Shown piece by piece: positions 1,825 through 42,041 of a DNA stretch of 44,654 bases; the stretch's first letter is position 1, and each line of letters starts with the position of its first letter. A program made the translations under genes and the position numbers. Origin of the DNA: a virus. The notes beneath the pieces were generated by a model. It saw nothing but the letters and a program-made list of their open reading frames with translations. It did not search any database and was not told where the DNA came from. The stretch is taken from positions 1-44,654 of IMG/VR virus record IMGVR_UViG_3300032323_000977; one strand, written 5' to 3'.

Positions 1825-2751
1825 TTAAGCTCCAATAGAACCGAAGATTCCTCTAGGGTCAGACCAGCCGTAGCTGTATCTTTCTCTAGCTTTGAATCTA
1901 ACGTTTCCTGTGTCAAAGTCACCTTCGATAGCCGTTTTAATTGGCGATCTTACAAAGTGTTTTAACCCATTTGGTGCGTCAGTCATGATGAAAAATGCAT
2001 CAGTGTCTGTTAAGAAGTGGTTAACTCTGTAACCCTCTGGGATCATTCCCATATTTAACATAGCGTTGATGTCGTTTTTCGCGAACGCATTAGAACCACC
2101 TGGAGTAGTTGATAAAGGTGTTCTTAAGATTCTCTCAGCAGTAAATTGTAATTCTTTTGGAATTATCAATTTTTTACCCATAAGAGCAACTTTTAGACCT
2201 CTTTCGTCTACAAATGCAGCAATATCAATTAGAGATTGCTCAAGTGATGTTTCTGATAAGTCAGCAGCAGTAGAAAGTATATTTCTAAACGTTCCACCGT
2301 TAGCAAGTGGGTGATCGTTAGCTAATAAAGCTTTTCCGTCTCCACCTGGGAAAGATGAACTAAAACCATTGTTTAAGATGTTAGCCGCAATCGTTTGCTT
2401 AGTTTGCGACATTGATCTTGCCAATGCTCTAGTATATCTCGCAGCGAGTCTGTCATACAAGTTATCTTCAATAGCTTCCTCAGTAATCGCGAATGCTAAA
2501 GCAATCGTGTTATGAGTGTATCTAGAAGTGTATGCTTCTGTAGCATTATCAAATACTACTGGAGCACCTTCTTGTTTAACTTCAGCGCTTGCAAATCCTG
2601 ATAACATTACTTCTTCTTCGAAAGCTCGATCTGAAGTTTCTGTTACAAAGATTTCTGCGTCTTCGTTATCGTATCTGTTGTATTCAAGTCCGAATAGTGC
2701 ATTCAAACCTGGCTCTAGTTCTTTTACTAGTTGTGATCGTGATATAGCCAT
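1825..2751 (-). CDS. major capsid protein
   Basis: 308 residues. It has the layout of an HK97-fold, Mu gpT-like major head subunit: an N-terminal helical arm (SQLVKELEPGLNALFG), a P-domain region (AFAITEEAIEDNLYDRLAARY), an A-domain region (KLIIPKELQFTAERILRTPL) and a conserved C-terminal stretch (KARERYSYGWSDPRGIFG) typical of such proteins. It forms the icosahedral head shell. The position downstream of the scaffold-like gene and a putative decoration gene supports this call, and a strong terminator follows directly. No separate protease domain is visible nearby. Confidence 0.9.
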   Translation of the reverse strand: MAISRSQLVKELEPGLNALFGLEYNRYDNEDAEIFVTETSDRAFEEEVMLSGFASAEVKQEGAPVVFDNATEAYTSRYTHNTIALAFAITEEAIEDNLYDRLAARYTRALARSMSQTKQTIAANILNNGFSSSFPGGDGKALLANDHPLANGGTFRNILSTAADLSETSLEQSLIDIAAFVDERGLKVALMGKKLIIPKELQFTAERILRTPLSTTPGGSNAFAKNDINAMLNMGMIPEGYRVNHFLTDTDAFFIMTDAPNGLKHFVRSPIKTAIEGDFDTGNVRFKARERYSYGWSDPRGIFGSIGA

Positions 2752-3394: not shown

Positions 3395-3868
3395 TTACTT
3401 TTTATTTCCACCACCAAAAGTTACGCGAGATTGTCTATTAATATTAATAGGCATCTCAGGTCGTTGTTCCTTCATTAGATCTGAATCAATCGCGTTAACT
3501 CTATCTTGAGTAATTCTTTTGAAATACTCTGCGCGAGATTTCACAATCTCTTCTGGTATCCTAGCCAACACTAGGCCAGCAACCCCGATCAACCCTGCGT
3601 ACTTACCGTCATGGATAATTGGATATTGGTTTTTTCCGAATCTACTTATAATTTCCTCGGATCTAACAAATTCCCAACCTTCTCTCATTTTCTTCGATAC
3701 GTTTGCAGTATCTTGAAAACCCATTGACTCGACTCTGATCCATCTATGGACATAGCCGTCTGGCGCAGGTGGTGCATCCAGAGATGATGGTGGCGCCCAA
3801 GGTTTATTTCTATCAACCTTAAATTCTTCGGACGCGCGTGAAGATCTTTTATTTTCTTTATCGCTCAT
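3395..3868 (-). CDS. conserved head-region protein of unknown function
   Basis: 157 residues, charged, no membrane segment. It has a proline-rich N-terminal part (KPWAPPSSLDAPPAPDG), a central alpha/beta part (RWIRVESMGFQDTANVSKKM, EGWEFVRSEEI) and a basic C-terminus. The gene ends where the capsid neighbour begins and starts one base from the scaffold gene stop. The same gene order (scaffold, this protein, decoration, capsid) recurs in marine phage contigs as I remember them, which suggests a head-assembly role; the molecular function is unknown. Confidence 0.7.
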   Translation of the reverse strand: MSDKENKRSSRASEEFKVDRNKPWAPPSSLDAPPAPDGYVHRWIRVESMGFQDTANVSKKMREGWEFVRSEEIISRFGKNQYPIIHDGKYAGLIGVAGLVLARIPEEIVKSRAEYFKRITQDRVNAIDSDLMKEQRPEMPININRQSRVTFGGGNKK

Positions 3869-4903: not shown

Positions 4904-5344
4904 TTAGTATAAGTGAAGAATATCTTGAGGACGTTTAACAACACCGATAATCTCATCATCATTTAAAATACGGTGTTCACCATATTTTGTTTTGAAACGA
5001 GATCCAGCATATCTTCCATACATTACGAACTGGCCTTCTTTGCACCAAGCTCCTGTAGGGAATTTATCTTTATCTAAATAACAAAGATCACCCATTTTAA
5101 CTACAATTCCAATAACTGTAGTCATAGCAATAGTATCTTGAGTTTGCTCAGATAGAATAAGTCCACCTTTAGTTTTAGTTTCTCCAGCGTATGGTCGCAC
5201 TAACATGCGGTAACCAATAGGGTCTGGAAGACAATCTAAATACTCTTGGATGCCTTTTGCGTCTTTTGGGATTTTTGTCTCGTTAGATTTTTCAGAAGAA
5301 CTAGTTGGAAGAACTAATTTCTGATTCGGTACTACTATCGTCAT
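4904..5344 (-). CDS. GroES-like co-chaperonin
   Basis: 146 residues. Residues about 40-146 match the Cpn10 fold: GYRMLVRPY at the start of the barrel, the mobile loop ETKTKGGLILSEQ (E. coli GroES has ETKSAGGIVL at the same place), then GIVVKMG and the roof/C-terminal strands (EGQFVMYGRYAGSRF, EIIGVVK). Expected to cap host GroEL and help fold the capsid, as T4 gp31 does. An N-terminal extension of about 40 residues is not in bacterial GroES (about 97 residues). No GroEL is in the window. The gene overlaps its upstream neighbour by 44 nt. Confidence 0.85.
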   Translation of the reverse strand: MTIVVPNQKLVLPTSSSEKSNETKIPKDAKGIQEYLDCLPDPIGYRMLVRPYAGETKTKGGLILSEQTQDTIAMTTVIGIVVKMGDLCYLDKDKFPTGAWCKEGQFVMYGRYAGSRFKTKYGEHRILNDDEIIGVVKRPQDILHLY

Positions 5345-6336: not shown

Positions 6337-6433
6337 TTAGAAACCTCTTAATTACGACTTGTCCTGTTGATACATTAGGTGTGTTTATATTACTGCAAGA
6401 AAAAAGCAATAATAAAATAACTAGGTATTTCAT
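6320..6433 (-). CDS. 37-residue lipoprotein, candidate o-spanin
   Basis: MKYLVILLLLFSCSNINTPN is a classical short lipoprotein signal peptide with a lipobox (LFSC, Cys13). The mature peptide would be only about 25 residues, as in Rz1-type outer-membrane spanins. The start codon overlaps the holin stop (TAATG), so translation is coupled to the holin. I see a lipobox and lysis-gene context; the spanin role is inference, and no proline-rich Rz1 signature is present. Confidence 0.65.
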   Translation of the reverse strand: MKYLVILLLLFSCSNINTPNVSTGQVVIKRFLIELER

Positions 6434-6861
6434 TACCCGTTTTCTTGTTCTTTAGGCTGTGGTTTGTTAGCCATTGTTCTAGCAACGGATTCTGCGCTTC
6501 TGCCGACCACATACCCTCCAAGACCTATTTGTAATAATGTCCAAACATCTCCTGGAAGAGTTATAGTTATAGAAGCTTTGAAGAAAAATAATATTACTGG
6601 TCCTAGTACATAATTCCATATTAATATAAATATTAATACGTACATTAATAATGGTCTCCAGCTAGATGCAAACCAACCAGCTTTAGCTTCAGCTTCAATA
6701 ATTTTAGCTGCTGCTGTTAATTCTTGAGTATGAGATTGCAACATCTGCGTTTGCAGATCTGCTTTTAATTTAGCGGCAAGGTCTTTATCGGCGACTGTTT
6801 TGTCAACTGTGTTAAATAAGATTTTCGCAAGTGGGGCAACTGCTTGAATGATTGGCAACAT
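6433..6861 (-). CDS. holin, 3-TM family
   Basis: 142 residues with an amphipathic N-terminal half and hydrophobic segments at about 70-92 (LLMYVLIFILIWNYVLGPV) and 105-122 (VWTLLQIGLGGYVVGRSAE). The signature SSWRPLLMYV and GGYVVGRSAESVAR matches the GTA/phage holin_3TM family (PF11351). It would permeabilise the inner membrane to release endolysin. A lipoprotein gene follows with a TAATG overlap. The first 97 nt are shared out of frame with a homing-endonuclease gene upstream. No endolysin gene was recognised in the window. Confidence 0.85.
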   Translation of the reverse strand: MLPIIQAVAPLAKILFNTVDKTVADKDLAAKLKADLQTQMLQSHTQELTAAAKIIEAEAKAGWFASSWRPLLMYVLIFILIWNYVLGPVILFFFKASITITLPGDVWTLLQIGLGGYVVGRSAESVARTMANKPQPKEQENG

Positions 6862-7187
6862 TGTTCAAATTTCTCCTTTCTTCTTATACCAAGAAAAGGA
6901 GCCATTTGCAACATCACATCCATTGCTCTATCTCCAGCTACAGTCCATTTCCAAGATTTTTTTAAATGATTTTTTTTAGGTATGTGTGAATTAACGTAAC
7001 CGAGTTTGAAAAAATCAACAAATCTGACAACGATATCTTCATCAGTCATTCTTACTTGAATTCTAAAATATCTATTATTTTTATTATCTTTCCCCCAAAA
7101 ACCAAACGACCCTTCTCCTTCAAATACTCCAGCAAGAAAAATTAGTTTTTGTTCTTTTGTTAACTTATCGTATGTTTGTTGAATCAT
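6765..7187 (-). CDS. LAGLIDADG-type homing endonuclease
   Basis: 140 residues with one LAGLIDADG-type motif, LAGVFEGEGSFGFWG (about 19-33), followed by strand-rich FRIQVRMTDEDIVVRFVDFF and KSWKWTVAGDRAMDVML typical of the family. Single-motif members act as homodimers. It is free-standing, not in an intron or intein that I can see, and its 3' end runs 97 nt into the holin gene in another frame, suggesting insertion next to the lysis gene. The extra C-terminal residues (after about 110) are probably the by-product of that overlap. Confidence 0.8.
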   Translation of the reverse strand: MIQQTYDKLTKEQKLIFLAGVFEGEGSFGFWGKDNKNNRYFRIQVRMTDEDIVVRFVDFFKLGYVNSHIPKKNHLKKSWKWTVAGDRAMDVMLQMAPFLGIRRKEKFEQCCQSFKQLPHLRKSYLTQLTKQSPIKTLPLN

Positions 7188-7216: not shown

Positions 7217-7399
7217 CTATTTATTTTTGTTTTGTCTAGAAATATATCCACCCATTCTCATTCCTTGAGAAGCTGGGCCTTTTTTAGGAGGTGGGCCAAA
7301 TCTTACACCTGGCATTTTGATCTTTTTGATTTTTTGTATAGAAGGTTTCTTAATTTTACTTATTTTTGGACTTTTAATTTTTGGAATACCAATTTTCAT
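7217..7399 (-). CDS. 60-residue lysine/proline-rich basic protein
   Basis: N-terminal part is an imperfect repeat of (I/K)PKI-K-S/K (IPKIKSPKISKIKKPSIQKI), followed by MPGVRFGPPPKKGPASQG and a C-terminal RMGGYISRQNK that resembles the K-x-G-G motif of neighbouring proteins. Located directly after the portal gene (2-nt gap). Small basic proteins at this place recur in marine phage contigs; a virion-internal, DNA-binding role is plausible but not shown. Confidence 0.7.
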   Translation of the reverse strand: MKIGIPKIKSPKISKIKKPSIQKIKKIKMPGVRFGPPPKKGPASQGMRMGGYISRQNKNK

Positions 7400-7401
7400 G
7401 G

Positions 7402-9747
7402 TTATCTTTTAGGAACGAACATTTGCTGATTCTTTTCTCTAGCAATTTTTAGTTTTTCATTAGCAACTTTAATTCTTTCTGCTGCTTGTTGTTCTTGATT
7501 CTCTAATTTCATCTTCTCAACATCAATTCTATCTTCAAATTCAAAAGATTTTCTCTCCATATCTTGTTGAGACTCTCTAGCACGTCTTTGAATGTCTAAA
7601 GCTTTAAGATCTAGCTCTCTTTGTTTTAACATTACTAGTGGATCTTGTTGTTCTCCACCTTCTGCTTGTACTAATTGTTGAGTTAATTCTACAACTCGTT
7701 TAGCAACTAGTGAATTAAATTGAACTTGATAACCATTTGGATCTTGTTGTTGCATAATTGCATTCTGTGGGTTCTCCATCATAGCTGCACCAATCTCTCC
7801 GTGTGCTTGGTACGCAATGTGATCTGAAATATGTCCTTGAAGTAGAGCATAAACCATTGGATTTGTTTGAACCATTCTACTTTGCATGAATATTGCGTGA
7901 GCATTAATGTGAGAAACGTGATCTTGCTCTGGAAATACTTTTAATAATTCCATTCTAAGTGCTTTAGAGTTCTCCGTAGCTGGATCTTCTGGTGTTGGTT
8001 CTCTTTCTGGAACTAATAAATCATCAATTTGTCTAGTTCCTAATGCTTCATACACTCTTCTGTACGCTTCTCTTAGGTTGTGCATCTGTGGATTAGACAT
8101 TGCAATCTTTAAATTCTCATTTGCAAGTGTAACTCTTTGTGCCATTGAATAAATACTTGGGTCTGCAACTGGAATAACATCAACTCTATCGTTAAAGTCT
8201 TCCATTTTAATTGTTCTATCTGCACCATAAACCGCATATGGGTATTCTGGTGGTAAGTAATCTGCAAATACTCCTGCTAAAATTCTAAATTCTTGTTTCA
8301 TTGCGTAGTAACATCGCTTATGAATAGCTGACATTACACGTGATCCGCGTTCTAATAATGCAATTGTAGTTCCAACAGCTGCTTGTTGGTTACCATCTCC
8401 TACTTGCATGTCTGCAATTGATGCAAATCTTTGACCTGCTTGTACTACAAATCCTAATAATTGGAATAAAGTTTGCGAAGGTTCTTTAAAAGGTAGTATT
8501 TGGAACTGATCTTTTATGTTTCCACCTGGTGCATCTACATCTCTAAACTCACCTGGCTGGAATGGTTGGTCATCATCCCTGATTCTAATTCCACGGCTCT
8601 TGAATCCTGCTGGTAAATTAGCAAGAGTACCTGCATCTAGTAATTGTCTTAAGCTAGAAGTAGCAGTTCTAGATAATCCACCTATCATGTGAATTAATCC
8701 AAAGCCATAAAATCCTAAACCTGGTAAAAATTTGTAATGTACAAAGTATTCTTTTCTTGTTTTTAATGGATCATCTTGATCATAGTTTCTATATACAGAT
8801 AAAATTTGTTGTGAACCCTCATCAATAGTTACAATGTAAGGTACTTTAATATTTTTCTCTTCTGTGTTTGCTGTTGTTTCATATTCATTTAAATCTAAAT
8901 CAACATGCATTTCTAAAATGTTATATTGATAAGTTGTATCTCCACTTGGTTTTACACCTTCAATCTCTGATAGCTTTTGTTGTATAGCTGTTTGTTCTGG
9001 TTGTTTAGGTATTAATTCTACATCTAAATAGAAGCCAGCTTTTTGATATTTAATAACATCGTTCTCATTCATTTTAACGATATGAGTAATACGTTCTGAA
9101 TCTTTTAAATCAGTTGCATAGTATGGAACTACTAAATCATCTGCGGGTACAAATTTAGATACTGCTCTTTGTAGTATTTCATCATAATAAACTTTTTTAA
9201 ATGCAGATCCTGATAATGGTAAATAAAATAATAACTGATCAAAGTCTGGAGTATACTCTTCCATTTTTTCCATCAACATATAGTTCATGAAATCTTTAAC
9301 TCTTTCTGCTTGTCTTAAAATATCTGGTGTCTCTAATCCAACAACTTCTGCTCTTACAGGTCCTTCTGCTGGTAATAATTCTTTATAGGCTTGTGCTTGA
9401 AATTGTGTAACTGATTCTGCAAGAAGTGGATGTGTAACTCCTGTTGCTCCTTGGAACGGTCTAGTCATGTCTTGGTATTTAAATCCTAATAGATCTAAAC
9501 CTTGAACATAAGTTTGTTCCCAATCTAATCTTGATACTCTATCTTTTTTATAGTCTGCAATAAGATCTAATGCGAGACGACCTAATGATCTGTCATCCAT
9601 ATCTTCCGCAAGGTTCTTATAAAAATTTTCTTCTACAACTTCTTGTGGAATTTGTTCTTCTTCAGGAAGAACAACATCTAATCCTTCTTCAGGAATAGTG
9701 TTGTCTTCCATTGGAAGCTCTTCATTAATCTTATCTACTTCAGCCAT
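7402..9747 (-). CDS. portal protein (P22-like)
   Basis: 781 residues, close to the size of P22-type portals. Recognisable stretches include GATGVTHPLLAE, KEYFVHYKFLPGLGFYGFGL, the conserved TLANLPAGFKSRGIRIRDDD region and GTTIALLERGSRVMSAIHKR, which together mark the portal family found in marine podovirus-like contigs. The last 100 residues form a K/E/Q-rich coiled coil. It makes the dodecameric DNA-entry ring of the head. It is followed upstream by small basic proteins and then terL, a standard packaging order. It contains about 15 GATC sites, in contrast to the terS-ardC region. Confidence 0.9.
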   Translation of the reverse strand: MAEVDKINEELPMEDNTIPEEGLDVVLPEEEQIPQEVVEENFYKNLAEDMDDRSLGRLALDLIADYKKDRVSRLDWEQTYVQGLDLLGFKYQDMTRPFQGATGVTHPLLAESVTQFQAQAYKELLPAEGPVRAEVVGLETPDILRQAERVKDFMNYMLMEKMEEYTPDFDQLLFYLPLSGSAFKKVYYDEILQRAVSKFVPADDLVVPYYATDLKDSERITHIVKMNENDVIKYQKAGFYLDVELIPKQPEQTAIQQKLSEIEGVKPSGDTTYQYNILEMHVDLDLNEYETTANTEEKNIKVPYIVTIDEGSQQILSVYRNYDQDDPLKTRKEYFVHYKFLPGLGFYGFGLIHMIGGLSRTATSSLRQLLDAGTLANLPAGFKSRGIRIRDDDQPFQPGEFRDVDAPGGNIKDQFQILPFKEPSQTLFQLLGFVVQAGQRFASIADMQVGDGNQQAAVGTTIALLERGSRVMSAIHKRCYYAMKQEFRILAGVFADYLPPEYPYAVYGADRTIKMEDFNDRVDVIPVADPSIYSMAQRVTLANENLKIAMSNPQMHNLREAYRRVYEALGTRQIDDLLVPEREPTPEDPATENSKALRMELLKVFPEQDHVSHINAHAIFMQSRMVQTNPMVYALLQGHISDHIAYQAHGEIGAAMMENPQNAIMQQQDPNGYQVQFNSLVAKRVVELTQQLVQAEGGEQQDPLVMLKQRELDLKALDIQRRARESQQDMERKSFEFEDRIDVEKMKLENQEQQAAERIKVANEKLKIAREKNQQMFVPKR

Positions 9748-10244
9748 TAAAAAAGTTTAGTAGGTTTACTTCTTGCTAATTTGTTTCCTCTTGCAACTAC
9801 TGATCCGCCTTTAGACGCTTTCATCATTTTACCTGCCTTAGCACCTTGCATTCCACTTAATCTTGCTCTTAGTTTTGCTCTAGGACTATCAGAAAGTTCA
9901 TCTCCTCTTAATGATGCTATTCTTTGTTTTCTAGCTGCTTCATCTAATTTAAATGCTTCTACTGATCCTCTTGTTGGTGCAACAGTTGATGCCATTCTGT
10001 CTGCGCCTTCCATTTGGTTAAATGCAGTATCTCTTGCTTCTCTTCTTGCAATATCAATACTTGATTCAGGTGCTGCGTACATTGATCTACGTGCTGGGCC
10101 TTCCATTGCGTTGATGTCTGCTTCTGCTCCTTCTAACTTAGCAATTTCCATTGGACTTTTTTGTCCTAATACTTTAGACGCGCCGTATGCTGCAGCGAGA
10201 CCTAAACCTATTTTAGCTAAATCGTTTAATTTTTTTCTTGCCAT
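9747..10244 (-). CDS. basic virion-block protein with C-terminal KGG motif
   Basis: 165 residues, Ala/Arg/Lys rich. N-terminus has a short hydrophobic helix (LAKIGLGLAAAYGASKVLG). The C-terminus ends KASKGGSVVARGNKLARSKP then TKLF, a pattern shared with the protein at 11192-11704 (SKGGAVRGTGAAIRGTRP then AKLY). Start overlaps nothing; stop adjoins the portal ATG. Probably an internal or head-neck virion protein; no family recognised. Confidence 0.7.
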   Translation of the reverse strand: MARKKLNDLAKIGLGLAAAYGASKVLGQKSPMEIAKLEGAEADINAMEGPARRSMYAAPESSIDIARREARDTAFNQMEGADRMASTVAPTRGSVEAFKLDEAARKQRIASLRGDELSDSPRAKLRARLSGMQGAKAGKMMKASKGGSVVARGNKLARSKPTKLF

Positions 10245-10308
10245 GGTTGTTTCTCCTTGTTGTTATAACAAGTTTATTTTAACATGCAATGATAATTAGA
10301 ACTATACT

Positions 10309-10479
10309 TTACAGTAAATCGCTAATGTATCCACCGCTTTTTACCTTGATTTCTCCACCTTCTTGCTTCTTATTCTTCATGATATAAAGCTCTTGTTCTA
10401 ATATATCTACCTTATCTACATCGCCTTTCATTTTGGCTTCTTCTAATAATTGTAATAATTGTGTGTATCTATTTGCCAT
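10309..10479 (-). CDS. 56-residue helical protein with KSGG C-terminus
   Basis: Starts at ATG 10479, overlapping the stop of the previous gene (TAATG). The product MANRYTQLLQLLEEAKMKGD is followed by an acidic/hydrophobic helix and ends IKVKSGGYISDLL, parallel to the end of the neighbour (RFKSGGSVEVGKGKDYIKDL). The shared ends suggest a common binding or packaging signal. Function unknown. Confidence 0.6.
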   Translation of the reverse strand: MANRYTQLLQLLEEAKMKGDVDKVDILEQELYIMKNKKQEGGEIKVKSGGYISDLL

Positions 10480-10871
10480 TAAATTAAATCCTTTATGTAA
10501 TCTTTTCCTTTACCTACTTCTACAGATCCACCTGATTTAAATCTTTTAGTAATACCAAATCTAATTTCTTTTCCTTGTGGATTTTTTGATACACCCACAC
10601 CAGCAGTTGTTGATTTATCTTCTGAAGTATATTGTGCACCAAGTCCGAGGTCCGTGGAGCTTGATCCTGCAATACCGTATTCTGTTTGACCCTTCTTAAC
10701 ATTTGCTCCTATGACTGGCTTTTGTTTTTCAACATCTACACCAGCAGCAATATTTGCGTATTCACCTTTTGACTTATCTAATAAATCTTTATCAACTAAA
10801 TTTGTAAGATCAATTGCAGATCCTACAACCCTGTCACCAAGTGTTCTAGAAATTTTATTTAACGTACCCAC
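10479..10871 (-). CDS. virion-block protein with KSGG C-terminus
   Basis: 130 residues: an N-terminal helix (GTLNKISRTLGDRVVGSAID) and a beta-rich Gly/Ser middle (GVDVEKQKPVIGANVKKGQT, GLGAQYTSEDKSTTAGVGVS) that looks like amphipathic beta-strands. Ends with FKSGGSVEVGKGKDYIKDLI. One base from the next upstream gene. No family recognised. A single heptamer-type GTCCGTG lies inside at 10650-10656. Confidence 0.65.
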   Translation of the reverse strand: MGTLNKISRTLGDRVVGSAIDLTNLVDKDLLDKSKGEYANIAAGVDVEKQKPVIGANVKKGQTEYGIAGSSSTDLGLGAQYTSEDKSTTAGVGVSKNPQGKEIRFGITKRFKSGGSVEVGKGKDYIKDLI

Positions 10872-11183
10872 TTAGAACACGCCTCTAAAAGGAACCTTCT
10901 TCACTTGAATTGGTTTTTGTCCTCTAGCGAAACCACCTTCTCTAAAAGATTCTGTGTCTGTAACATTTGGAATTTTTTTAGCTGCTGTACCTTTTAAACT
11001 TTCATATGATACAGGGGGTTTTTCTTGATCGTAGAATCCTGGTTTAAATTCATTACGACTCATGTAAGGATCTTCTTTTGATACAACAGAAATTTTTCCA
11101 GATTGTGAATCTCGAATTGCTTTTGTGTTTTCCGATATACCTAGTTCTTTTAATTGTTTCTTGCTCATTGTCTTTTGTGACAT
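10872..11183 (-). CDS. small virion-block protein with EGG C-terminal motif
   Basis: 103 residues, hydrophilic, with a C-terminal segment REGGFARGQKPIQVKKVPF that again fits the G-G-x-x-x-R-G pattern of neighbouring proteins. N-terminus MSQKTMSKKQLKELGIS is helical. No membrane or catalytic motif. Between terL-side and portal-side genes; role unknown. Confidence 0.65.
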   Translation of the reverse strand: MSQKTMSKKQLKELGISENTKAIRDSQSGKISVVSKEDPYMSRNEFKPGFYDQEKPPVSYESLKGTAAKKIPNVTDTESFREGGFARGQKPIQVKKVPFRGVF

Positions 11184-11191
11184 ATTATCTC

Positions 11192-11704
11192 CTAGTATAG
11201 TTTAGCGGGTCTTGTGCCACGGATCGCGGCTCCTGTGCCTCTTACAGCGCCACCTTTAGAGAATGCTTGTCCCATTCCTCTTTCAGCCATTCCACCGCCT
11301 CGTTTGTTTTTAGTTCTTAACATTTTAAAATCTTCTCCAGATATTTTACCATCTTTGTTAACATCTAGTTTAGATTGCTTACCTGATAATCCACCCATCA
11401 TATCACCTTCTGCTGCTTTTTTCATTTTAGATTGACCTGCTTCAGATAATGCAATAGCGATTGCTTGTTTAGGATTTTTTACAACGGGTCCTTTTTTACC
11501 AGAATGTAATTCTCCTTTTTTAAATTCTCTCATTACTTTTCCAATTTTCTTTTGAGATTTAGTCATAGCACCTTTAGCTGCTTTAACCATTTTACCAGAT
11601 TCAGTTTCTTCGTAGCCTTCTTTTTCCATTTTAGTTTCTCTACCTTCTTTCATTGTAGATTCTCTGTCTTCATGTAGCTTAGACATGTCTTTAGCTTTTT
11701 TCAT
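11192..11704 (-). CDS. DUF6496-like protein with EF-hand loop and KGG C-terminus
   Basis: 170 residues from ATG 11704, chosen because AGGAG lies 5 nt upstream; an in-frame ATG at 11776 inside terL would add 24 unlikely residues. Middle part (KVMREFKKGELHSGKKGP, then NPKQAIAIALSEAG) matches DUF6496. It is followed by a canonical EF-hand calcium loop, DVNKDGKISGEDF, and ends SKGGAVRGTGAAIRGTRP. The N-terminal third is charged and repetitive. Placed directly after terL with a 7-nt gap. Function unknown; calcium binding is a motif-based inference. Confidence 0.75.
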   Translation of the reverse strand: MKKAKDMSKLHEDRESTMKEGRETKMEKEGYEETESGKMVKAAKGAMTKSQKKIGKVMREFKKGELHSGKKGPVVKNPKQAIAIALSEAGQSKMKKAAEGDMMGGLSGKQSKLDVNKDGKISGEDFKMLRTKNKRGGGMAERGMGQAFSKGGAVRGTGAAIRGTRPAKLY

Positions 11705-11711
11705 AGGGCTC

Positions 11712-13187
11712 CTAATAATATTTATATTCCTTTTGAACTCTATCCATAGGGTCTTTCCAATCGGACCCTGTCTCAATAAAGTTACCTTGTCGGTATCTTA
11801 ACACAGCTTGCGTAGTACTATCAACATAGTCATCATACTCTCCATGAGGAAAGGCGGCACATTCCTCAATAACCTCTTCTGCAAAGTGTTCTCCTTCTGG
11901 ATACCATACGGACCCTCCTTCAAATACAGGGGCACAAGCATTAACTCTAGAATGCTTATCTTTTCCACGTGATGGTGTAAAAGGAATTACGGGTATACCC
12001 ATTCTTCTAAACTCATGGGTTAAAGGCTCACCAGAAGCTTTAGCTTCAATAATAACAGAATCAGGTTCCCAGTATTTATATTGTTCCATAGCAACTGCTT
12101 TTAATTCTGGAAAATCATATTTACCTTTCATAGCATCTAATAATATTAAATTAGGACCCCCACCTTCTTCTGGAGTAAATATACCCCACGTAGTAATAGC
12201 AGAATAATCCGCAGACTCCTTTGCACTGAATGCAGTATCATAACTTTGTATAACATGTTGTAGATGTGGGATGTGTTCTTTCTCCCAAGGCTTCCACCAA
12301 TCTCGTTTTAATATAGCACCTTCTTCTGATGTAGGGTTCTGCATATATTGAGCAGACCAGTTACGAACAGGTAGTGTTGCTTTAACTCTTTCTAATTCAT
12401 CTATTTGCCAAAACTCTGGCCACAATGGTTTACCTGAATCTAGTATTGCAGGAAAAGATATTAGTTTCCATTTGTCTGCTTTATTTTCTTTTTGTCCTTT
12501 TATCAACATCCCTGTTAAATCGTTCTCGGCCCATCTTGTCATAACAAGAACTATAGATCCGCCAGGTTGCAAACGCTGTCTGGGTCCTGATGAATACCAT
12601 TCAAATGTTCTCTCCATTGCTTTCTTAGATAAGGAATCCTGTTCTGTATGTGGGTCGTCTATAATTAATAGATCGGCACCTCGTCCAGTAATTGCTCCGC
12701 CGACCCCCGCAGCAAAGTATTCACCGCCATGATTAGTTTCCCATCTACCTTTAGCTTTAGAATCTTCTCGTAATTTAACATCTCCAAATATTTGTTTATA
12801 TTCTTTTGAATCGATCAAGTTACGGATCTTCGCTCCGAATCTTGCTGATAATTCAGCGTTGTGTGTTACTTGCATTAATTTTAATTTTGGAAACTTGCCC
12901 ATCATCCAAGCAGGAAAGAATACAGAAGCAAATTCTGATTTGGTATGTCGGGGAGGCATATTAACAATAAGGCGCCCTTTTTTCTGATTTGCTATATCAG
13001 TAAATTCTTTAGACATAATTTGGTGATGGCCCCACTTTGAAGGGTCCTTTTCTTTACGCATGATAATATCAGGCCAAACCTCCTGAACAAAATATAAAAA
13101 ATTGTCCTGACAAAGTTTAATGTGTTGAATCCATTTCTTTTCTACTTCTTCGCGTAATCGTTCAGTTGTTAAGAATTCTTTTTCCAT
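11712..13187 (-). CDS. terL: terminase large subunit
   Basis: 491 residues. ATPase half: Walker A-like MPPRHTKSE (about 77-85), Walker B LLIIDDPH (173-180), coupling motif VLVMTRW (213-219). RNase H-like nuclease half: SYDTAFS with Asp317, EAKASG with Glu391 and YDDYVDS around 451-457 supplying the acidic residues. It packages DNA into the prohead and cuts concatemers. In most phages terS is directly upstream; here terS lies 4.8 kb away, beyond the nuclease and a plus-strand block. Confidence 0.93.
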   Translation of the reverse strand: MEKEFLTTERLREEVEKKWIQHIKLCQDNFLYFVQEVWPDIIMRKEKDPSKWGHHQIMSKEFTDIANQKKGRLIVNMPPRHTKSEFASVFFPAWMMGKFPKLKLMQVTHNAELSARFGAKIRNLIDSKEYKQIFGDVKLREDSKAKGRWETNHGGEYFAAGVGGAITGRGADLLIIDDPHTEQDSLSKKAMERTFEWYSSGPRQRLQPGGSIVLVMTRWAENDLTGMLIKGQKENKADKWKLISFPAILDSGKPLWPEFWQIDELERVKATLPVRNWSAQYMQNPTSEEGAILKRDWWKPWEKEHIPHLQHVIQSYDTAFSAKESADYSAITTWGIFTPEEGGGPNLILLDAMKGKYDFPELKAVAMEQYKYWEPDSVIIEAKASGEPLTHEFRRMGIPVIPFTPSRGKDKHSRVNACAPVFEGGSVWYPEGEHFAEEVIEECAAFPHGEYDDYVDSTTQAVLRYRQGNFIETGSDWKDPMDRVQKEYKYY

Positions 13188-38832: not shown

Positions 38833-39747
38833 TTATTTTACTCGTTGAAGTTCGCCGTCAGCGCCTAATCTAAATACATTACCAGAACCCGTTGGTTTAG
38901 CATAATCTAAAATTGAAACACCTTTGTTTTCTAATGCTTTAGCAGCTAAATTTATATTTTGTAATCCTTGGGCTTCTTTAATTTTTATTAAATCTGAATA
39001 ATAACCTTTTAATGCTGCTGTCTTTGCTTCAAATGCAGACTCTGTATCACTTGATGATGGTAGGAATTTTTTTAAATTTTCTCTTTCTTTATCAGAAACT
39101 GTTAATCCAGAAGTTAATTTAATGTAGTCTGTTTCAAATCTTGAAAGATTAGAATTAAATTGTTTTACTTCTTTTCCATACTCTCCTCCAAATATACCAC
39201 TTACAAAACCACCTATCTTTTCTGGATCTAAATTATACCAAGGGCCAACAGGTTTACCTAATCTTTTATAATCAGATTCTATTTGATTTAATGTATTTAT
39301 GTTTGATAATAAAGATTCAGATTCTTGTATTTCTTTTTCACTAGGTTTACTTATAATATTAATTTTTCCAGAAGAATCTACTTGAGCAATAGTGCCAGCA
39401 GGTAATTTTGCTAATTTAACTTCATCAGCTGTTAAATTTCTAACTCTTTCTACTGGCTTTGGTTGGCCAGCTAATTCTAATTTTTTAATATTTAATGCAA
39501 CGGCTGGTACTTGTGATACTCCTTCTCCAACTGCTCCAAATAAAGAAGCTAATGAAGATTCACCTTGTCTTTGTTTTGCTTGTAATAAGCTGGCAGCAAC
39601 TGGTGCTAACATATAACCAAGTTTTTCACCTTCAGAGAATACTTCTCCACCTTGATTAAATTTTAAAACAGCAATACCACCTTTTTTAGGTTTAATTTCT
39701 TCTACGTATTTCTCACGAAATAATTTTCTTGATAAAACTGTATCCAT
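38833..39747 (-). CDS. putative internal virion protein
   Basis: 304 residues, helical, with a K-x-G-G-type segment near the N-terminus (VLKFNQGGEVFSEGEKLGYM) and a DPEKIGGFVSGIFGGEYG loop mid-way. No membrane helix of typical length. In a run of one-base-apart genes with the ejection-type proteins. No family recognised. Confidence 0.6.
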   Translation of the reverse strand: MDTVLSRKLFREKYVEEIKPKKGGIAVLKFNQGGEVFSEGEKLGYMLAPVAASLLQAKQRQGESSLASLFGAVGEGVSQVPAVALNIKKLELAGQPKPVERVRNLTADEVKLAKLPAGTIAQVDSSGKINIISKPSEKEIQESESLLSNINTLNQIESDYKRLGKPVGPWYNLDPEKIGGFVSGIFGGEYGKEVKQFNSNLSRFETDYIKLTSGLTVSDKERENLKKFLPSSSDTESAFEAKTAALKGYYSDLIKIKEAQGLQNINLAAKALENKGVSILDYAKPTGSGNVFRLGADGELQRVK

Positions 39748-40613: not shown

Positions 40614-41071
40614 TAAAATAACTCCTTTTGTAATTCTACGTGTTTAACATTCCAACCATATTGTTTTACTACTTTACTCCAACCTGGTCTAGCCAACATA
40701 CATAATCTTTTACAATCATTTTGTATTGCAAAATTTTCAATCATAGATACCATATCGTCTTGCCATAATTCTCTTTTTTCCCCAGTTAAAACAATACCTT
40801 CTAATTGTCTTAAATTAGGTTGGTCCGTGATCCGTGTAACGAGGCAACCGAATACTTTCTGTTTAAGCCCGTCATCAGAACCAAATACCACGAATAGTTG
40901 CATACTACCCTCTATTAAATAATCTTTAATATGATGGGCATTAGCATATCCTCCTGAATACTTTAAAGCCTCGGCAATCATAAAATTTACCAATGGCCAA
41001 AATCTTTCTACATCTGAACTATGGATGTGAAGGACGTCTACTCGTTTCTCAATTAGTCTTTCTGCTTGCAT
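40613..41071 (-). CDS. GNAT-like protein of the virion block
   Basis: 152 residues. The pattern WPLVNFMIAEALKYSGGYAN, IKDYLIEGSMQLFVVFGSDD and GCLVTRITDQPNLRQLEGIV resembles the acetyltransferase fold found next to internal virion protein genes of T7-like phages (T7 gp13 place). No strong AcCoA loop (R/Q-x-x-G-x-G/A), so enzyme activity is doubtful; structural use is possible. Heptamers at 40823-40836 fall in its middle. Confidence 0.6.
   Translation of the reverse strand: MQAERLIEKRVDVLHIHSSDVERFWPLVNFMIAEALKYSGGYANAHHIKDYLIEGSMQLFVVFGSDDGLKQKVFGCLVTRITDQPNLRQLEGIVLTGEKRELWQDDMVSMIENFAIQNDCKRLCMLARPGWSKVVKQYGWNVKHVELQKELF
40823..40836 (+). repeat. NNCCGTG heptamer x2
   Basis: GTCCGTG (40823-40829) and ATCCGTG (40830-40836), followed by TAACGAG. 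Located inside the GNAT-like gene, minus frame (LVTRITDQ). Confidence 0.65.
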
Positions 41072-42041
41072 CTAATAAATCAAATATTCTTTTAAATTTA
41101 GCTTGTTGATCATAGAAGTAAGCAGCACCTAATTTTCTCATTTCTCTCATATTGTTTGGTGATGCTCCTGCCATAATCCCAGCACCTAAAACTGCATCAG
41201 AACGAGATACGAATTCTCCATCAGCTAATTGCGCTAAAATAGTATCTGTATCTTTATCGCCTGTGCCTGATCCATCTTCCACGTATCCTGAAGCTCTAAC
41301 ATAATTGTTTTCGTCATTTTCGTCATGTGAAACTTTTGATGGTAAATAATTAACTCCACCTACTGAAAACTTTGGTAGTGTATCTACAATACCACCTTTA
41401 TTAAATGTATACAATTTATTTGGGCTATAGTTATAAGGACTAATAGCTGTATATTGTGGTTGAGTAATAGATCCTAAACCTTTTAATTTTTCTGATTCAG
41501 TTGCATAAGCTTTTGCATAATCTTCATTTGTGAATGGTGGTTTAGGTTCTTCTGGTGTATCAGCAAATGCTGACGCTACTACTGGAGCTGCAACTGAAGT
41601 TGCAAGAAATTTTTCTCCTGTGCCTAATGATTGGAAACCAGTTCCTCCAACTGCTTTTGTAAATTCTGGTGTGCCTTTTTCAAGGCCTTTTTTAAGTGCT
41701 TCTTCTGTTGATATAGGTTTTGTTCCATATAAAGATTTAATACCTTCTCCAGCAAAAGTACTACCTAATTGTTCTCCAAGTGTTAAACCAGTAGCCTTAG
41801 CTCCTCCAATATAACTTCCTTCAGCACCAAATCCTGGTACTAAACTTCCTATACCATCACTAGAACCGAAAGCTTGAAATAGATTACTTCCGCCAGGTCC
41901 CATACCTTGACCAACTCCACCCATACCAGCTAACTGAACTCCTCCAGCTGCTAATAATGCATCTCTAAATGATCTACCTGTAGATTTACCTCTTAATTTT
42001 TGTACGCCAAATACGGCTAAAGCGACTGTGAATGGATCCAT
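41049..42041 (-). CDS. virion protein with DGEFV motif
   Basis: 330 residues. N-terminus MDPFTVALAVFGVQKLRGKS hydrophobic/basic; Gly-rich first half; the C-terminal stretch GSGTGDKDTDTILAQLADGE then FVSRSDAVLGAGIM is the known phage virion motif (P-G-T-G-T-S-D-S-I-P-A-x-L-S-D-G-E-F-V). K-x-G-G segments occur twice (FNKGGIVDTLPKFSVGGVNY). Overlaps the GNAT-like gene by 23 nt. Confidence 0.7.
   Translation of the reverse strand: MDPFTVALAVFGVQKLRGKSTGRSFRDALLAAGGVQLAGMGGVGQGMGPGGSNLFQAFGSSDGIGSLVPGFGAEGSYIGGAKATGLTLGEQLGSTFAGEGIKSLYGTKPISTEEALKKGLEKGTPEFTKAVGGTGFQSLGTGEKFLATSVAAPVVASAFADTPEEPKPPFTNEDYAKAYATESEKLKGLGSITQPQYTAISPYNYSPNKLYTFNKGGIVDTLPKFSVGGVNYLPSKVSHDENDENNYVRASGYVEDGSGTGDKDTDTILAQLADGEFVSRSDAVLGAGIMAGASPNNMREMRKLGAAYFYDQQAKFKRIFDLLDASRKTN

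Follow-up and report, generated by a model that had tools for sequence, protein, structure and literature searches.

Exchangeable C-terminal diglycine tails on unrelated late proteins of HTVC023P-type podoviruses, candidate cargo tags for the phage head

The viral contig IMGVR_UViG_3300032323_000977 of IMG/VR, analysed here over its full 44,654 nucleotides (44.7 kb; the window), encodes six proteins, the products of genes A-F, whose genes flank the portal gene in the terminase large subunit (TerL)-portal block and whose C-termini carry short glycine-rich segments. On sequence evidence, the conserved unit of these segments is a C-terminal tail consisting of a glycine pair (GG) followed by one of several exact endings, and not the K-x-G-G motif that an earlier sequence-only reading had proposed. 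The tails are real, anchored at the C-terminus, conserved at the protein level and interchangeable between proteins; they are encoded beside the head genes, on the head-gene strand, and occur mostly in phages that have this head module. On balance, they are probably short disordered docking peptides that act as a modular cargo tag for the head.

All nine peptides quoted in the sequence-only reading are present in the window, and the six located at 7217-11704 form the C-termini of the products of genes A-F, on the minus strand. What stands of the proposed motif is a common C-terminal GG on unrelated bodies, whereas strict K-x-G-G does not hold as the conserved unit; the residues at the GG are S-K-G-G in genes A and E, R-E-G-G in gene B and R-M-G-G in gene F. 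The other three peptides, which had been counted with the tails, are internal: FNQGGEV at residue 33 of 304 (38833-39747), FNKGGIVD at residue 215 of 330 (41049-42041) and AEGGMPARN at residue 44 of 132 (1023-1421). Of these three, orthologues retain AEGGMPARN alone, in the form KGGMP[AP]RN; in this DUF6321 protein, the conserved internal segment KGGMP[AP]RNKKNFRST lies upstream of a conserved C-terminus, ..RQARKRWKC.

Tail classes I-V were derived from the C-termini encoded in 80 loci chosen solely by portal. Written up to the C-terminal residue, they are GG(x)nK-G-x-DYIKDLL (class I), GGxxRGxGxAIRGxxFxGV[FKR] (class II), GGxVxARGxKLARSKPTKL[YF] (class III), GGLVVN[IL]FA, found on a protein of 740-780 amino acids (class IV), and GGEVVISSNVDKSLL (class V). 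A sixth class, KGG...RGDGIAxRGKTxGxxV (class VI), is common in higher-G+C relatives. Individual tails read, for example, GGxVxxGKGxDYIKDLL, GGxVRGxGAAIRGxxFxGVF and GGSVxARGNKLARSKPTKLF, and the endings encountered are DYIKDLL, FxGVF, KPTKLY, NIFA, DKSLL and RGDGIAxRGKTxG. Classes II, III and VI intergrade, and RGTGAAIRGTRPAKLY of gene A joins classes II and III. At least one open reading frame (ORF) with such a tail was found in 73 of the 80 portal-chosen loci, many of which are only 4-8 kb long.

The association of GG with these endings, and their position, also emerged from scans in which they were not imposed. A scan of IMG/VR for C-terminal DYIKDLL, with no requirement for GG, returned 110 ORFs, of which 104 have GG within 40 residues, mostly 15-17 residues from the end. 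A scan for RGDGxAxRGxTxG requiring neither a stop codon nor GG returned 84 ORFs; in 83 of them exactly 3 residues follow the motif, and nearly all have GG upstream of it. The tails are C-terminal in every case, and the N-terminal position of a T4-type capsid-targeting sequence (CTS) was not encountered. Searches with tail peptides against phages and plasmids (tblastn) gave no useful matches, probably owing to the shortness and low complexity of the peptides, and no description of the tail was found in a limited, word-based literature search that left out most subscription papers.

GG lies 6-30 residues from the C-terminus in 6 of the 7 proteins of the block, as against an average of 1.5 after residue shuffling (P = 0.00035). 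Across the window, C-terminal GG is present in 10 of 29 late proteins and 4 of 51 early proteins (Fisher P = 0.005), and class-specific tails in 5 late ORFs and no early ones. Of 6410 ORFs, 448 distinct ones carry tails of classes I-V, and residue-shuffled copies yield no tails; the patterns were partly defined on the same sequences in which they were counted, and the shuffles ignore relatedness between sequences. Chance or composition as the source of the tails is ruled out by the shuffles together with the strand bias described below. The tails are conserved in orthologues; in gene E, compared across 37 relatives, consensus identity is 72% in the last 28 columns and 42% in the middle of the protein. 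Neither outcome that the earlier reading named as refuting its motif, equal frequency in early proteins or absence from orthologues, was observed. The proposal of a short linear motif common to late proteins with unrelated bodies was supported by nearly every test that was run.

The bodies that carry the tails are diverse. Without their tails, the 448 ORFs fall into 43 blastp clusters, an approximate number, as single linkage may merge or split some. Homologous bodies with different tails form 240 pairs (E < 1e-8): the bodies of ORFs from loci L169 and L089 match at 1e-70 and end in GGEVVFGKGKDYIKDLL (class I) and GGRAEIKGTRPAKLT (class III), respectively, and those from L027 and L163 match at 2e-38 and carry tails of classes I and II. 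One body family of small basic proteins, GKAAAKRKFKVYPSAYAN (L001, L019, L078, L082, L198, L231, L453 and others), combines a constant N-terminus with three or more different endings, GCGxVMxxRRKxTKxx being one of them. In the window, the end of gene F, GGYISRQNKNK, differs from every defined ending; in relatives, this body ends in the class II form ..KKFIGVK. Present on 43 body clusters and swapped between homologous bodies, the tails are, as in a T4-type CTS, a tag common to otherwise unrelated proteins.

Selection on the tails acts at the protein level. Codon identity over the seven codons of DYIKDLL between unrelated bodies is 0.544, compared with 0.572 expected from codon usage; the codons are therefore no more alike than chance, which argues for selection on the protein.

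Among loci with a landmark gene, the tail ORF lies on the same strand as the nearest head gene in 684 of 684 cases, at a median distance of 545 bp and within 3 kb in 96%; many loci were fetched by the tail patterns, which biases tail counts but not strand or distance. Nearly all loci with a DYIKDLL ending encode window-type portal, TerL, major capsid protein (MCP), scaffold or g3395 homologues. Window-type head-gene or g3395 homologues are present in 75 of 118 class II loci and 42 of 92 RGDG loci, in which many contigs are only 4-6 kb, and where a class VI contig includes the MCP gene, its product is 57-81% identical to that of the window. Tail-bearing phages include SAR11 isolates and a freshwater gammaproteobacterial phage, with G+C fractions of 0.32-0.56. 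In HTVC023P, which like HTVC027P is cultured on HTCC1062, the tail-bearing products are gp30, gp32, gp51 and gp53. Two phages of the same SAR11 strain with a different virion, HTVC010P and HTVC019P, have no such tails. The tail patterns are absent from T7, and Syn5 and P-SSP7 have different endings. A motif specific to SAR11 hosts is ruled out by the tail-less HTVC010P and HTVC019P and by the tails of freshwater-type phages.

As cargo tags, the tails would allow many unrelated late proteins to bind a common partner in the assembling head, which may be the portal-adaptor vertex, the scaffold or the capsid shell at its inner face. Small basic proteins, a β-meander protein (gene C) and the polyvalent-like 740-780-residue proteins of relatives would make up the cargo; once bound, they would enter the particle and would probably be ejected into the host cell. 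From the sequences alone, we infer that a capsid-targeting or ejection signal, as the earlier reading had suggested, is the best-supported description, with a head component as the putative receptor and the tagged proteins as presumed virion constituents destined for ejection. Structure models are consistent with a flexible docking peptide: the core of the gene C model has a mean predicted local distance difference test score (pLDDT) of about 83-91 and its last nine residues (122-130) fall below 50, as do residues 725-736 of the large class IV protein, in models made without partners.

Three points weigh against this account. The class patterns detect tails in only 11 of 54 loci chosen by MCP alone from cellular genome assemblies, many of them truncated and some with other GG endings visible by eye, such as KGGMADYYKDLV and KGGMARACGAIMEGKRKITKFS; because so few capsid-chosen loci are positive, the tails are not universal in the capsid lineage and are a feature of this head lineage, not of every member. 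A genome with several tail classes would need either multiple binding sites or a degenerate one. Finally, concerted evolution of the tails within a genome, the co-variation expected if a receptor co-evolves with them, was not seen (permutation P = 0.77), in a weak test in which tails ending ..DLID and ..DLL slide by one residue.

A fuller version, in which at least six uncleaved GG-tail 'dialects' form a C-terminal cargo-loading code that addresses swappable, unrelated payload to the head, is possible but falls slightly short of an even chance. Such a code would operate in a large lineage to which the most abundant known ocean pelagiphages belong, and payload genes could be gained once they picked up a tail. 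Should the cargo-tag account hold, the last 20 residues would be enough to assign hundreds of unannotated proteins at once to the virion payload, metagenomes could be surveyed for the payload repertoire, and proteins could be loaded into these heads by means of the tag.

An unlikely alternative is a binding partner outside the virion, in the host or among chaperones, such as GroEL acting with the GroES of the phage, or a target in the membrane or in transcription; grouping beside head genes would then reflect only late timing. A GroES gene does lie in the same module in annotated relatives, the tail-bearing bodies look effector-like, and a host-facing signal could equally be C-terminal; however, other pelagiphages of the same host are tail-less, and tail phages share the same head module despite differing hosts and habitats. 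It is quite unlikely that the tails are self-association or DNA-binding elements that condense proteins with the packaged DNA and need no specific head receptor. Tails of classes II, III and VI are basic and RG-rich and many bodies are basic, but classes I (GGEVEIGKGKDYIKDLL), IV (GGLVVNIFA) and V are not basic, and exact C-terminal endings at fixed distances from GG point to a specific pocket rather than to composition.

Maturation cleavage at GG, which would remove the downstream part as a signal in the manner of proteolysed prohead proteins, is improbable. GG is a common protease site and the tags of T4 internal proteins are cleaved, yet here conservation is highest downstream of GG and runs exactly to the C-terminus. 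No prohead protease of family S78 was found in the window record, which is probably incomplete, other families not being excluded, nor was one seen among the late proteins scanned. A DNA- or RNA-level feature with no protein role, such as the Shine-Dalgarno sequence of the next gene or a recombination site, is very improbable. Many tail genes do run up to or into the start codon of the next gene, and AAAGGAGGT could encode KGG. Only 2 of 407 tails, however, have GGAGGT as the GG codon pair, and some 25-60 nt separate GG from the stop codon. The rarity of GGAGGT together with random-level codon identity rules out a Shine-Dalgarno or recent-copy origin, and the codon comparison effectively refutes the explanation.

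The window belongs, by sequence, to an HTVC023P-type pelagiphage-like podovirus, of a group that ranks among the most abundant in the ocean. Its portal protein is 68% identical to gp31 of Pelagibacter phage HTVC023P, its MCP is 76% identical to the HTVC023P capsid protein and 70% identical to the MCP of DSL-LC04, and its gene order (TerL, small genes, portal, small genes, GroES, scaffold-like gene, two small genes, MCP) is that of HTVC023P, HTVC027P and DSL-LC04; portal and capsid likeness and the TerL-portal-GroES-scaffold-MCP order are the marks of this lineage. The record is probably incomplete, because it is shorter than its relatives of 58-61 kb. No close solved structures were found for the portal and capsid proteins, and an MCP profile matched GpT-like capsid chains only weakly (E about 0.5). 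Coordinates of the tailed genes and head-module landmarks are given in Table 1.

Table 1. Tailed genes of the TerL-portal block and landmarks of the head module in the window
Feature	Coordinates	Strand	Basis or remark
Terminase large subunit	11712..13187	-	PHROG 38, 8e-111
Gene A, DUF6496 domain and EF-hand-like loop	11192..11776	-	ORF; Pfam DUF6496 4e-10
Gene A tail SKGGAVRGTGAAIRGTRPAKLY, class II/III hybrid	11195-11260	-	class regex match
Gene B, 103 aa	10872..11183	-	ORF
Gene B tail REGGFARGQKPIQVKKVPFRGVF, class II	10875-10943	-	orthologous tails in L005, L007, L008, L010
Gene C, predicted 8-strand beta meander	10479..10871	-	structure model
Gene C tail KSGGSVEVGKGKDYIKDLI, class I	10482-10538	-	
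Gene D, 56 aa	10309..10479	-	
Gene D tail KQEGGEIKVKSGGYISDLL, class I variant	10312-10368	-	conserved in L001, L003-L008
Gene E, 165 aa	9747..10244	-	
Gene E tail SKGGSVVARGNKLARSKPTKLF, class III	9750-9815	-	
Portal protein, without tail	7402..9747	-	PHROG 1216 portal 4e-45; between genes E and F
Gene F, 60 aa, C-terminal RMGGYISRQNKNK	7217..7399	-	ORF; atypical end
GroES-like co-chaperonin	4904..5344	-	synteny with annotated GroES of HTVC023P and DSL-LC04
Major capsid protein	1825..2751	-	identity to HTVC023P and DSL-LC04 capsid proteins

The EF-hand or dockerin-like loop of gene A, LDVNKDGKISGEDF, scores under EF-hand cut-offs. For the antiparallel meander of gene C (10479-10871), the best matches among solved structures are membrane β-barrels (VDAC, FadL and porins), at middling Z scores of up to 8.3; that the product is ejected and acts on membranes is a weak possibility. 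The region immediately downstream of gene F (6433-7187) contains a membrane protein ORF (6433-6861) whose start is overlapped by an ORF for a LAGLIDADG-like homing endonuclease (6765-7187). The protein encoded at 3395-3868, adjoining the scaffold-like gene, ends in RVTFGGGNKK; several distant relatives retain an FGG close to the C-terminus, which may represent a distinct C-terminal feature.

The class IV protein (740-780 residues; L019:5513-7723 and L027:7117-9432) is encoded between TerL and portal in relatives and is absent from the window. It ends in ITPEMKxxPFKxYxxGGLVVNIFA and has no significant domain match in Pfam. Its predicted fold resembles large polyvalent phage proteins in BFVD (E down to 3e-12), where Foldseek matches annotated LPD or ART-PolyVal have E values of 3e-4 to 7e-4. 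Large polyvalent proteins are a class predicted to be packaged and injected, and the parts of their description consulted make no mention of such a C-terminal tag (PMC5512222).

Three known systems offer likenesses to the tails, by analogy and not as relatives. The CTS of T4 is N-terminal and cleaved. T4 internal proteins form a highly diverse set that shares only this targeting sequence, and their cargo counters host defences (PMC3012670). In both systems diverse phage proteins would share only a short tag for prohead loading, but T4 uses one sequence, whereas the tags here are C-terminal, apparently retained and of several exchangeable classes. In encapsulins, short C-terminal peptides on unrelated cargo dock inside an HK97-fold shell (PMC8346489). 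Short C-terminal peptides on unrelated proteins are likewise found here, but the TVGSL-type motif is absent from the tails, the shell is that of a DNA-filled phage head, and binding to it is putative. In T7, only the C-terminus of gp7.3 is ordered, docked at the adaptor-nozzle junction, and gp7.3 and gp6.7 are ejected (PMC11784390). These small proteins are encoded just upstream of the portal gene, and genes A-F flank the portal gene. Syn5 gp36 is also encoded just upstream of portal and ends in ..SLRIPLNTGSAKGASKGGGLNIPK. The tails have no sequence relationship to gp7.3, and whereas T7 has one protein with one docking end, up to five or six proteins per genome here share a few tails.

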